Below are positions 4,974 through 11,923 of a DNA stretch of 64,000 bases, piece by piece (positions within the stretch are counted from its first letter, which is position 1; every line of letters begins with the position of its first letter). Location of the stretch: assembly GCF_001636315.1 (NCBI RefSeq), contig NZ_KV440949.1, positions 5,474,084-5,538,083 on the forward strand, given 5' to 3'. Source of the DNA: Neobacillus mesonae (GTDB lineage: Bacteria; Bacillota; Bacilli; Bacillales; Cytobacillaceae). The position numbers and the translations under genes are program-made. Below the pieces are notes generated by a model. That model was given only the letters and a program-made list of their open reading frames with translations, searched no databases and was not told the DNA's origin.

Positions 4974-5636
4974 AAATAATACCTCCAATTTATTTATTCC
5001 CTTAAAAACTTTTTTCCTTATAAAAGGATTTAATCCTTAAAATAAGATCAAATACCAAAGTATTTAAAAAGTGAGACGGCGATTCAGTAATCATATAAAA
5101 CGTTCATATAGCAAAGAAGGAACATGGTTGTTAATACTAACTATTTGCCATTTGTCTCCATTAATAGATGGAAATGATGAAAACTACTAATGCTGCAATA
5201 TCCAGTCCATAAATCAAAATTCGAAAATTCTCGATAATAAAAAAATTGATATTCCTAAAACAACGAAAGCCCTGCCTCTCTTTCATCCTTACGGCTCCTT
5301 GACCGTGCCAGTGTGAATCAGGGGTGTAAAACCAAATTATTACTTTTATTAACTCATTCGGGAAAATATCGTTTTTGTGAAGAAGAAATAAGAAAAATAC
5401 CTAATATTGTGATGAAATAAAGAAGTTCTTGATATCTATGAGTTGAAGAGGATTCCTATTTTCATTTTTTAAAGAAAACCTTTATATTGAGGTAAAACTT
5501 TTACACCTTCTTGAATGATTTTTGTGGATTACTGCTCACTCCATATTGGTAATCTTTTTAAGGATACCACACTAGAATAATTTTATCAAATTTTATATTT
5601 TATCATTGATAATGTTTTAATGTCAACACAAAAAAA
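4974..5636. other. Long intergenic stretch between HU and glcF
   Basis: About 660 bp with no open frame worth calling on either strand. AT-rich. It should contain the HU promoter. The segment around 5270-5330 is locally GC-richer but shows no clear hairpin, tRNA or riboswitch that I can support. Confidence 0.4.
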
Positions 5637-8726: not shown

Positions 8727-10865
8727 TTATTTATCTTTAACTCGGAGGAGTCTTAAACCATTTAGTGTGACAATTAGAGTAGCACCCATATCTGCAAAAA
8801 TGGCAATCCACAACGTGAGCCACCCAGGAATGACTAATAACAATGCCACTAGTTTAATTCCTAAAGAAAAGGTGATGTTCTGTTTGATAATGGTTAATGC
8901 TTTTCTACTAAGCTTTACCGTAAATGGCAGTTTTCCAAGGTCATCTGCCATCAACGCAATATCAGCAGTCTCAAGGGCTGTATCTGTACCAGCTCCACCC
9001 ATAGCAATTCCGACCGTGGATGCTGCTAATGCTGGCGCATCATTTACCCCATCGCCAACCATTGCCACATGTTCATATTTACCTCTTAGCTCCTTAATAA
9101 AGGTTAATTTATCTTGAGGTAAAAGTTCTGCTTTAATATCGGAAACTCCTGCCTGTTTTCCAATCGCTTTGGCGGTTCCATAGTTATCTCCAGTTAACAT
9201 GATGGTTTTTTGAATTCCTAAAGAATGAAGTTTTTCGATGACGCCCTTACTGTTTTGTCTTAACTCATCGGCAACAGCAATTAGCCCCAATACTTCATTT
9301 GCAGTTCCAGCAACCATCACCGTTTTTCCTTGATTTTGCAGGTCAGAAATTTGGGTATTTAATTCATAGGGAATTCCTTTGGCCAGGATTTCATCAAATA
9401 ACTTAGGGCTGCCAACATAATACGTCACACCCTTGTAGATGCCTTTAACTCCTTTACCTGTAATGGAAGAGAAGTCCTCTATCGTAACACTGTGATAGAG
9501 TAATTGTTCATCTTCTGCTTTTTTCATAATAGCTGAAGCTAATGGATGCTGAGAGCCATTTTCTAATGCAGCAATAATGTTTAACAATTCATTTGAATCG
9601 ATATTTGGCTTAGGCAAGTAATCGGTAACCGCTGGAATTCCTTTCGTTAAAGTTCCCGTTTTGTCAAAGGCGATCGCTTTAATGGCTCCCATTTCTTCTA
9701 AATGAATTCCGCCTTTAATAAGTACACCATTTCGAGCAGCATTTCCAATGGCGGTTACAATCGAAACTGGTGTGGAAATCACAAGCGCACAAGGACAACC
9801 TACCACTAGAACGGCTAATCCTTGATAAATCCATTTATCCCAAGCTGCTCCAAAAAATAGCGGCGGCAAAACAGCTACACCGAGTGCAATGAGCATAATA
9901 ACGGGTGTGTAATATTTTGCGAATCGATCGACAAAAGCCTGAGACGGAGCTCTTTCAGCTTGAGCCTCTTCAACCAAATGAATAATCTTGGCAATGGTTG
10001 TGTCTTCTACCTGTTTCGTTACTTTGACTTCAAGCAATCCTTCTTCATTTAACGTTCCGGCAAACACTTCATCATCCACTGATTTTGCTGCAGGGACAGA
10101 TTCACCGGTAATCGCAGCTTGATTTACTGCCGAAAGTCCCTTTACGACTATTCCATCCATCGCAATTTTCTGTCCTGGCTTCACAATCATGATGTCGCCT
10201 ATTTGAATATCATCGACCTCAACTGTAAATTCCTTCGTTCCTCTTCGAATTAAGGCTTCCTTCGGTGCAATATCCATTAAAGAATGGATGGATTGACGAG
10301 CTTTATCCATGGAGTATGTCTCAAGCGCTTCACTGATGGCAAATAGAATCACAACAGTAGCACCCTCACCCCATTCGCCAATAAACGCAGCTCCAATGAC
10401 AGCAATCGTCATCAAGGTTCTCATATCAAACTCTAAACGAAATAAATTCTTTATTCCGGTACGAAATAGTCTATAACCGCCTACTAAAATAGATGCGCCA
10501 TAGGCTAATATCGTAGAAATACTCTCTTCACCATTTATGTGCCCTGAATACCAACCAATAAGCAAGAAAACCATTGAAACAATGACCGTTGAATGCTTTT
10601 GTAAGAACGGCTCTTTTTGCTCAACCACTTTTTGTTTCTCAGGATATACTTTAATATTTTCAAAAGCTCCTGCCTTTTCTAATTCTTCAATTGATGCTTC
10701 ACCATAAACCGTTAGTTTTGAAGCACCAAAGTTTACACTTGCATTAGAAACACCATCCAGGTGTTTTACGTTCTTTTCGAACTTTGTCGCGCAGCCAGCT
10801 CAGGTGAATCCTTGAACACGGTACACGTTTTTTTCATTTGCTTTTTCTAAAGCGGCACTACTCAT
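8727..10865 (-). CDS. cadA: Cd/Zn/Pb-type P1B-ATPase CadA with in-frame UGA at the first HMA cysteine (candidate selenoprotein)
   Basis: Membrane efflux ATPase for soft divalent metals. The 712-codon frame begins at ATG 10865, overlapping the cadC stop by 8 bp, and has one internal TGA at 10802-10800 (codon 22). The context reads VQGFT-[UGA][11 protein letters not shown], where relatives have the metal-binding motif GFTCxxC of the N-terminal HMA domain. The codons after the TGA keep HMA sequence without further stops and run into TGES (about 253), the transmembrane CPC (357-359), DKTGT (401), the HP motif (440) and a C-terminal [15 protein letters not shown] typical of Zn/Cd pumps. A start at GTG 10628 would drop the HMA domain and has no good ribosome binding site. 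I read the UGA as selenocysteine (UxxC). A nonsense mutation with loss of the HMA is the alternative. Confidence 0.85.
10770..10782 (-). promoter_or_regulatory. SECIS-like hairpin downstream of the cadA UGA
   Basis: On the minus-strand mRNA, counting from the base after UGA, GUUC is at +18 to +21, loop GAAAA at +22 to +26 and GAAC at +27 to +30. Stem-loop distance fits bacterial SECIS geometry and equals that of the neighbouring lipoprotein gene. The stem is short and the loop lacks a GU pair, so this is only suggestive. Confidence 0.4.
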
Positions 10866-11226
10866 GTGATTTTCCCTCCATTTGGTGAGTGAAGGCGATT
10901 TGAATCAGTTGTCTTACATGATCATCGTCGAGTGAATAAAACACTAATTTGCCTTCTTTACGATATTTCGCTAACCCTAAATTCCGAAGTAGTCGTAAAT
11001 GATGGGATGCAGTAGCTGTTGAACTCCCTATAATATTCGCTACATCGCATACACACAACTCATCCTCTTCACATAATGCAAAGGCAATTTTAATCCTAGT
11101 GTCATCAGACAACGCTTTAAATATTTGTGAAACGTTTATTGTGTCTTTTTGAGAAATGGCAGTTTTGACACGATTTACTTTTTCTTCATCGAAACAGGAT
11201 ATTTCACAAATATCATTATGTTTCAT
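10858..11226 (-). CDS. cadC: ArsR/SmtB family metal-responsive repressor CadC
   Basis: Winged-helix repressor that releases DNA when it binds Cd, Pb or Zn. The metal site ELCVCD is visible at about residues 55-60, followed by the recognition helix region STATASHHLRLLRNLGLAKYRKEGKLVFYSL. An N-terminal Cys (CEISC) could complete the thiolate site, as in staphylococcal CadC. The preferred start, ATG 11226 after GGAGAGGAG, gives 122 aa, the same length as the classical CadC. A longer frame from 11247 starts inside the operator and has no ribosome binding site. Its stop overlaps the cadA start, so the pump is translationally coupled to its repressor. Two palindromes flank its promoter. Confidence 0.94.
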   Translation of the reverse strand: MKHNDICEISCFDEEKVNRVKTAISQKDTINVSQIFKALSDDTRIKIAFALCEEDELCVCDVANIIGSSTATASHHLRLLRNLGLAKYRKEGKLVFYSLDDDHVRQLIQIAFTHQMEGKSHE

Positions 11227-11241
11227 ATATCTCCTCTCCTT

Positions 11242-11261
11242 ATTCAAATGTCCGTTTGAAT
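11242..11261. promoter_or_regulatory. CadC operator, proximal palindrome
   Basis: ATTCAAA-TGTCCG-TTTGAAT, perfect 7-bp arms, lying between the -10 box and the cadC ribosome binding site. The half site TCAAA/TTTGA matches the CadC/SmtB operator type. Confidence 0.75.
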
Positions 11262-11264
11262 ATT

Positions 11265-11293
11265 AGTATATGATGTAAAAATAAAATGGTCAA
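11265..11293 (-). promoter_or_regulatory. Sigma-A promoter of cadC-cadA
   Basis: Minus strand TTGACC (11293-11288), exactly 17-bp spacer, TATACT (11270-11265). The -35 box overlaps the distal palindrome and the -10 box abuts the proximal one, so a bound repressor would block polymerase. Confidence 0.8.
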
Positions 11294-11305
11294 ATAATTA
11301 TTTGA
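11290..11305. promoter_or_regulatory. CadC operator, distal palindrome
   Basis: TCAAATAATTATTTGA, a perfect 16-bp palindrome closely matching the known CadC operator core TCAAATA-N-TATTTGA. It overlaps the -35 box of cadC and also lies upstream of the divergent lipoprotein gene. Confidence 0.8.
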
Positions 11306-11357
11306 ATGTTAAAAAATAAACCCTAATGTGGTGAATTTCTAGTTTCTTATGTAATTA

Positions 11358-11386
11358 TTGAATCTATAAATAAAAGCAATTATTCT
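11358..11386 (+). promoter_or_regulatory. Likely promoter of the PCYCGC lipoprotein gene
   Basis: TTGAAT, 17-bp spacer, TATTCT, about 40 bp before the start codon. It is about 50 bp from the distal cad operator, so co-regulation with cadCA by CadC is possible but not shown. Confidence 0.5.
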
Positions 11387-11428
11387 AATATGTAAAGCGT
11401 TGTATTAGTAGAAAGAAAGGAAGGTTGG

Positions 11429-11923
11429 ATGAAAAAGTATTTATTCCCTACTTTGTTTATCTTTTCTTTAGTAACTGGTTGTTCTTCATCAGGAGATGAG
11501 TCATTTAAGGAAGAGCATTCTAGCAGTCAAAACCAAGAGCAAAGTGCTTCTGCTTTAACGTATAAAATAGGCAGTGTTGATTGGTCCGCCGTCACTACAT
11601 ATAGTGATAGTCCGAAAGTGTTAGAAGCCTACCAGTTTGCAGTAGAACATCCTGAAGTACTCAATTATATGCCTTGTTATTGTGGATGTTACGAGGAGGA
11701 GGGTCATACAAGCAATACCAATTGTTTTGTTGACAACGTAAATGGAAATACGGTCACACTTGATACAATGGGTTTTGGCTGAGGGGTCTGCGTTGACATA
11801 GCCCGTGAGGCTAAATCAGAGTTTAAAAAAGGAACACCATTAGAAGACATCCGAAAAATGATAGACGAAAAATATAAAGGAACTGGAACACCATCAACAC
11901 CTACACCTATGCCTAAGGCTTAA
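11429..11923 (+). CDS. PCYCGC-motif lipoprotein with in-frame UGA in its second CxxC-type motif (candidate selenoprotein)
   Basis: Surface lipoprotein of the PCYCGC family, whose function is unknown but whose conserved cysteines suggest thiol or metal chemistry outside the membrane. The signal peptide ends in a lipobox (VTGC), then comes a Ser/Gln-rich linker, the signature YMPCYCGCYEEEGHTSN near residue 75, and DTMGFG-[UGA]-GVCVDIAREA. The TGA is codon 118 (11780-11782), where relatives have the first Cys of GCGVC. The frame after the TGA continues with family sequence (EFKKGTPLEDIRKMIDEKY) to a normal TAA at 11921. RBS GAAAGGAAGG precedes ATG 11429. Read through, the protein is 164 aa; stopped at the UGA it would be 117 aa and lack the conserved C-terminus. 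Selenocysteine is the best reading. Confidence 0.87.
11793..11819 (+). promoter_or_regulatory. SECIS-like hairpin downstream of the lipoprotein UGA
   Basis: UUGA / UAGCC / loop CGUGA / GGCUA / UCAG, with a 2x2 internal loop between the two stems. The upper stem starts 17 nt after the UGA and the loop starts at +22, with G as its second base and a GU inside it. These features agree with the bacterial SECIS pattern (loop about 16-37 nt after UGA, early G in the loop). Confidence 0.6.

Follow-up and report, generated by a model that had tools for sequence, protein, structure and literature searches.

How a bacterium could make a full-length metal pump from a gene in which a stop codon takes the place of the first ligand of the metal-binding motif is the question raised by cadA of Neobacillus mesonae, which lies in the 64,000-nt stretch of DNA analysed here (the window). 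A sequence-only reading of the window had noted that codon 22 of this gene is TGA, at the position where the HMA motif usually holds its first Cys, and this is indeed what the sequence has. The gene begins at ATG 10865-10863 (minus strand), overlapping the 3′ end of cadC, the TGA stands in the context VQGFT-TGA-AGCA, and from there the frame is open down to 8727 (Table 1).

Table 1. Features of the cad locus, with positions in the window
Feature	Position	Strand	Basis or remark
cadA, P1B-type Cd/Zn/Pb-exporting ATPase, one in-frame TGA	8727..10865	-	712 residues + stop; motifs and TIGR models
Shine-Dalgarno GGAGG of cadA	10875..10879	-	9 nt 5′ of ATG 10865; sequence; score 5/6
TGA codon 22, predicted selenocysteine, position 1 of HMA CxxC (UxxC)	10800..10802	-
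57 codons from TGA to GTG 10628, remainder of HMA domain	10629..10799	-	Pfam HMA, dN/dS
Hairpin 1, GUUC-GAAAA-GAAC, apical loop 21 nt past UGA	10770..10782	-	4 pairs, all cells paired, compensatory changes
Hairpin 2, ACACC-UGGAU-GGUGU, apical loop 40 nt past UGA	10750..10764	-	near-frozen synonymous codons 13-17 after Sec
cadC, ArsR/SmtB metalloregulator, Cys 7, 11, 52, 58, 60	10858..11226	-	NF033788 over cut-off, Pfam HTH_5, Cys positions
PCYCGC-motif lipoprotein gene, divergent from cadC, in-frame TGA 11780-11782	11429..11923	+	candidate selenoprotein
Hairpin UAGCC-CGUGA-GGCUA, loop 21 nt past lipoprotein TGA	11799..11813	+	UCGCC/GGCGA in L062, L181

The cadA frame and the selenocysteine machinery

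The product of this frame has the hallmarks of a heavy-metal exporter, with 608.3 bits against the heavy-metal P-type ATPase model TIGR01525 (cut-off 346.25) and a match to TIGR01512 that is likewise over the cut-off. It is the only match in its own genome at E <= 1e-200, and the closest named cadA is that of Neobacillus sp. DY30 (88%). The piece 3′ of the TGA matches Pfam HMA over residues 1-42 (E 1.9e-7) and also the Pfam E1-E2 ATPase and hydrolase families. The 57 codons that separate the TGA from the next start, GTG 10628, had been described as HMA-like from the letters alone, a description borne out by the Pfam match, by the open frame and by purifying selection: the mean dN/dS between this gene and eight relatives is 0.12 for these codons and, for the same eight pairs, 0.14 for the 38 codons past the hairpins described below and 0.06 for the rest. 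For GTG 10628 the same reading had seen no ribosome binding site. By a crude Shine-Dalgarno score the best internal start within 95 codons of this gene reaches 3/6 vs 5/6 at ATG 10865. When 64 genes were scored in this crude way, the upstream start had 6/6 in 51 and 5/6 in 13, while five had no internal start and the best one in the others scored 5/6 in 12 and at most 4 in 47.

Public gene calls mostly begin past the TGA. The database entry for this cadA (P0003) is a protein of 633 aa that starts at GTG 10628, and the metal-binding HMA domain is missing from the records of 97 of the best 120 homologues (of 7998 scored). Four of 2446 matching plasmid records were examined, and the cadA genes on three Cytobacillus plasmids (L164-L166) have the TGA, while that on a Peribacillus asahii plasmid has TGC. 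On the three Cytobacillus plasmids RefSeq gives a 711-aa CDS that runs through the TGA, so its pipeline appears to treat the codon as selenocysteine (Sec). These large plasmids also have a gene for an NAD(P)/FAD-dependent oxidoreductase 3′ of the Sec-CadA gene.

The organism very probably decodes Sec, as judged from its gene content. Its genome (5.8 Mb, two contigs) encodes a tRNA-Sec with anticodon tca together with SelA, SelB and SelD, each over its own family cut-off, so that the complete machinery is in place. Two further genes have the expected kind of TGA: selD itself, with one in-frame TGA in the context AGUGCK, and one fdhA, with an in-frame TGA in the context UHAP that is followed by a single long hairpin with a GGUCU loop. 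There is also an Fdh-like stretch with an in-frame TGA (L173, G000:C1:2456392-2457144), where a script that looked for a UHxP context around the TGA found none, and it was left out of the selenoprotein count. In all 30 genomes searched for selD (L020, L197-L225), one of which is Cys-type for cadA, the best match has one in-frame TGA. By our count, the minimum-energy fold of the RNA 3′ of the selD TGA has two adjacent hairpins in 18 of these 30, which hints that an element of two hairpins is common in this group.

Codon 22 and SelA among relatives

The loci of relatives in named genomes were found with the post-TGA protein, and the best 80 of 509 were used. Immediately before the xxCA of the motif, 63 of these 80 loci have TGA, 15 TGT and two TGC, and hence codon 22 exchanges with Cys codons only. 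This is a clear case of the Cys/TGA alternation that the selenocysteine reading would lead one to look for among homologues. On a tree of 81 pumps, built with the HMA region excluded, the Sec and Cys states need eight changes (mean of shuffles, 15.6), and since Cys has replaced Sec on several branches, Sec is not indispensable. The exchange extends to strains of one species, Robertmurraya korlensis (TGC in L068, TGA in L069). In Neobacillus pocheonensis (L052) the codon is TGT and both hairpins are intact, likely the mark of a recent change from Sec to Cys. One locus (L090), on a contig labelled Chryseobacterium sp. ISL-80, has a Sec-CadA that groups with those of Mesobacillus and Bacillus, which may point to a wrong label or a mixed assembly.

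The genus itself was scanned in 60 genomes, 58 of which gave a total of 62 matches to cadA, and codon 22 could be read in all 62. It is TGA in 58 and Cys in four, these being TGC in genome G100, TGT in genome G097 and a GMDCxSC motif in two distant pumps (49-51% identity). The TGA form is thus the usual one among the close relatives of this Neobacillus. G097 matches the genome of L052 and seemingly has two cadA copies (L186 and L245), one with TGT and both hairpins intact, and the other with TGA, preceded by a further in-frame TGA 11 codons before it. A second group of Sec-CadA (L187-L191, L193-L196), about 64-71% identical to that of the window and likewise with the TGA and the hairpin, is present in many genomes of the genus.

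SelA was searched for in 50 of the genomes behind the best 80 loci. It is present over the cut-off in all 35 TGA-type genomes vs 5 of 15 Cys-type genomes (Fisher 2.9e-7); two Cys copies (L101 and L103) that share their genomes with L054 and L048, where SelA is present, were excluded, and with them the Cys side becomes 7/17. Corrected for ancestry, the contrast comes to eight independent pairs, of which three to four are as expected and none against (sign test p 0.125, not significant), so the raw association partly reflects shared ancestry. The retention of SelA in 5 of the 15 Cys-type genomes again marks Sec as dispensable. In the genus, SelA is found in 59 of the 60 genomes, and the only one that lacks it, G100, is the one with a TGC cadA. 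The frame of this gene is open, the TAA in the match being its final codon, and a nearly intact hairpin remnant, CATCTGGATGGTG, is still present. The joint loss of SelA and of the TGA in G100 is a single event, and it is what the selenocysteine reading would predict.

Hairpins 3′ of the TGA and the neighbouring lipoprotein gene

Insertion of Sec at a bacterial UGA depends on a SECIS, whose apical loop lies 16-37 nt after the UGA and has a G early in the loop. To the RNA 3′ of codon 22 two adjacent hairpins can be assigned. A gapless alignment of 64 TGA genes over 63 nt from the TGA (59 distinct rows) folds into hairpins at columns 21-33 and 39-53, and in these 59 rows 531 of 531 cells are paired. 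Changes on both sides of a pair occur in seven cells, all in hairpin 1, where AUUC/GAAU (four genes) or GUUU/AAAC (three genes) replaces the stem GUUC/GAAC. In 500 shuffles the paired percentage, the number of double-change cells and the covariation score of the TGA genes were never matched; the other two of the five covariation measures are unexceptional (doubly changed pairs, 23/500 shuffles; further pair types, 201/500). In the Cys genes (n = 17, 15 of them distinct) the paired share is 74%, which is no more than in shuffles (188/500) and above slid versions (39-51%), and the pairing therefore comes partly from the protein sequence. Because the stems are short, they escaped a search for inverted repeats in 10740-11430 (seed 9, length 12), which had no hits.

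Hairpin 1 falls inside the SECIS range given above and hairpin 2 beyond it, yet despite its distance of 40 nt it is hairpin 2 that is more closely linked to Sec. It is degraded in most Cys forms. The five codons that encode it, 13-17 after Sec (H-L-D-G-V), are nearly invariant, with top-codon frequencies of 0.98, 1, 1, 1 and 0.94, whereas the other conserved codons (n = 352, beyond residue 25) have a mean of 0.52 and none reaches 0.95. The H is lacking in 16 of the 17 Cys forms and the D in 13, so it seems that the RNA has shaped this stretch of the protein. Exact copies of the 13-mer CACCTGGATGGTG are present in 54 of the 60 genus genomes and in 8 of 40 further genomes from the order (reversed control, 3/100). 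Of the six genus genomes that lack it, two have CACCTGGAGGGTG and one has CATCTGGATGGTG, all three with the TGA; the others are G100 and two without a cadA at the search threshold.

On the other side of the TGA lies cadC, whose product combines the ArsR/SmtB fold with Cys at 7, 11, 58 and 60, in the numbering of staphylococcal CadC, and it can be assigned as a CadC. The divergent lipoprotein gene, which the sequence-only reading of the cadA codon had not named, has an in-frame TGA of its own, in the frame MGFG-TGA-GVCVDIAREAK (UxxC), which ends at TAA 11921. The part before the TGA matches the PCYCGC family PF13798 with 58.3 bits (cut-off 25), and since the PCYCGC motif is followed by a later UxxC, 11429-11923 has the make-up of a CYCXC (seleno)protein. 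Among the loci examined, a TGA at the same site of a lipoprotein gene near cadA is found in L030, L031, L039, L062, L070 and L143 (the stretches of L070 and L143 are identical over the part compared), and in L181 it stands in a variant context. L050 and L051 have a Cys form, and both of these genomes are without SelA over the cut-off. In the remaining cadA loci examined, a search for the lipoprotein gene within the flanks found none. The hairpin after the lipoprotein TGA covaries, being UCGCC-CGUGA-GGCGA in L062 and L181; when the whole 60 nt after the TGA is folded, it is not always in the minimum-energy fold. Elsewhere in the window, 5250-5336 (plus strand) matches Rfam RF01410 (BsrC) with 92 bits.

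Interpretation and comparison with known systems

We consider it very probable, from these comparisons of sequences, that cadA encodes a selenoprotein in which SelB-guided incorporation of Sec at the UGA of codon 22 yields a full-length Cd/Zn/Pb exporter with a UxxC HMA motif. SelB and Sec-tRNA-Sec would insert selenocysteine at this codon, guided by the two-hairpin element within 50 nt 3′ of the UGA, one or other hairpin presumably being the one that SelB binds. In the resulting exporter, UxxC would stand in place of CxxC in the metal-binding domain at the N-terminus. Without selenium little of the pump would probably be made because good internal starts are rare. The selenocysteine readthrough proposed by the sequence-only reading has thus gained support from the machinery, the Cys/TGA exchange and the conserved RNA element. 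That reading had also held that UxxC would alter metal affinity, which is a chemically plausible prediction. Selenols are softer and more acidic than thiols and are able to form a selenenyl-sulfide. The selenol is predicted to let the domain bind soft metals faster or more tightly, or to undergo reversible oxidation; more speculatively, Sec might capture Cd, Pb or Hg more quickly, or it and its partner Cys might join in a selenenyl-sulfide.

If the TGA were a true stop, translation would have to restart downstream and give a pump without the HMA domain. In related pumps the HMA domain is not known to be essential for transport, the records of this gene and of most of its best homologues are annotated in just this form, and in 12 of the 64 genes an internal start scores 5/6, all of which would suit such a restart. 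It is nevertheless very unlikely, and we reject it: purifying selection acts on the codons past the TGA, 52 of the 64 genes have no internal start that scores above 4 while the upstream start is at or near the maximum in every one, codon 22 exchanges with Cys alone, and a frozen RNA hairpin lies just 3′ of it. A sequencing error or a recent pseudogene, for which we found no more than that a Cys codon becomes TGA in a single step, is so improbable that it can be set aside, as it is refuted by the same TGA in 63 of the 80 relatives, from many genera, and in three plasmid copies, with a frame that is open to the end; an error at 10802-10800 had been considered when the codon was first noted.

A subtler possibility accepts Sec at codon 22 and makes it mainly a selenium-dependent switch on synthesis of the pump, with the metal chemistry of Sec minor. 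The eight Sec/Cys changes on the tree, by which Cys works too, and the scarcity of good internal starts would both fit a switch, but a switch has no need for Sec exactly at the first metal ligand, nor for exchange with Cys only, and we regard it as unlikely. We further propose, tentatively and with more doubt than confidence, that the cad locus of these Bacillaceae may be a selenium-dependent metal-defence unit, in which the genes for a Sec exporter and for a Sec lipoprotein, each with UxxC, diverge around cadC, and that the SelB of this group may read a two-hairpin element (in cadA and often in selD) and not the textbook single hairpin. If so, metal tolerance would be tied to the supply of selenium. 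Selenoproteins are mostly thought of as redox enzymes, and here Sec is predicted at the metal ligand of a transporter, in bacteria that include several named, cultured strains. With Sec and Cys forms of the pump in close relatives, even within Robertmurraya korlensis, the role of selenium at a metal ligand is directly testable.

Literature searches of open-licence texts found no paper on Bacillaceae forms of Sec-CadA and none on selenocysteine in Neobacillus. The kind of protein is known, and cadA here is a well-supported, widespread member of it; its seemingly new aspects are the scale, the element of two hairpins, the matched loss event and the pairing of two selenoproteins. Three papers list a UxxC "cation-transporting ATPase E1-E2" as a predicted selenoprotein family (PMC2398784, PMC9312934, PMC13188914), and another gives it 25 organisms and 32 genes (PMC5029168). 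The review PMC13188914 also includes a CYCXC protein in its selenoprotein table; it links most transporter selenoproteins of this sort to resistance against metals or metalloids, with Sec as a possible metal ligand in some. The pump described here, a heavy-metal P-type ATPase with a predicted Sec in UxxC, fits the description of the listed ATPase family. With CadA/ZntA ATPases that have a CxxC HMA (nearest solved structures 7qbz and 4umv) it shares the domains, the motifs and the cadC-cadA order, and it differs from them in that UGA encodes the first Cys position of the HMA motif. Both pieces of the lipoprotein, before and after the TGA, match the CYCXC family NF041379, and the first also matches PF13798; against NF041379 each piece alone (53.1 and 21.3 bits) is below the curated score of 90. 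Finally, the cadA element is partly like a bacterial SECIS, with a hairpin close behind the UGA and a G in its apical loop, and departs from it in having two adjacent hairpins, of which the more strictly conserved lies 40 nt from the UGA.
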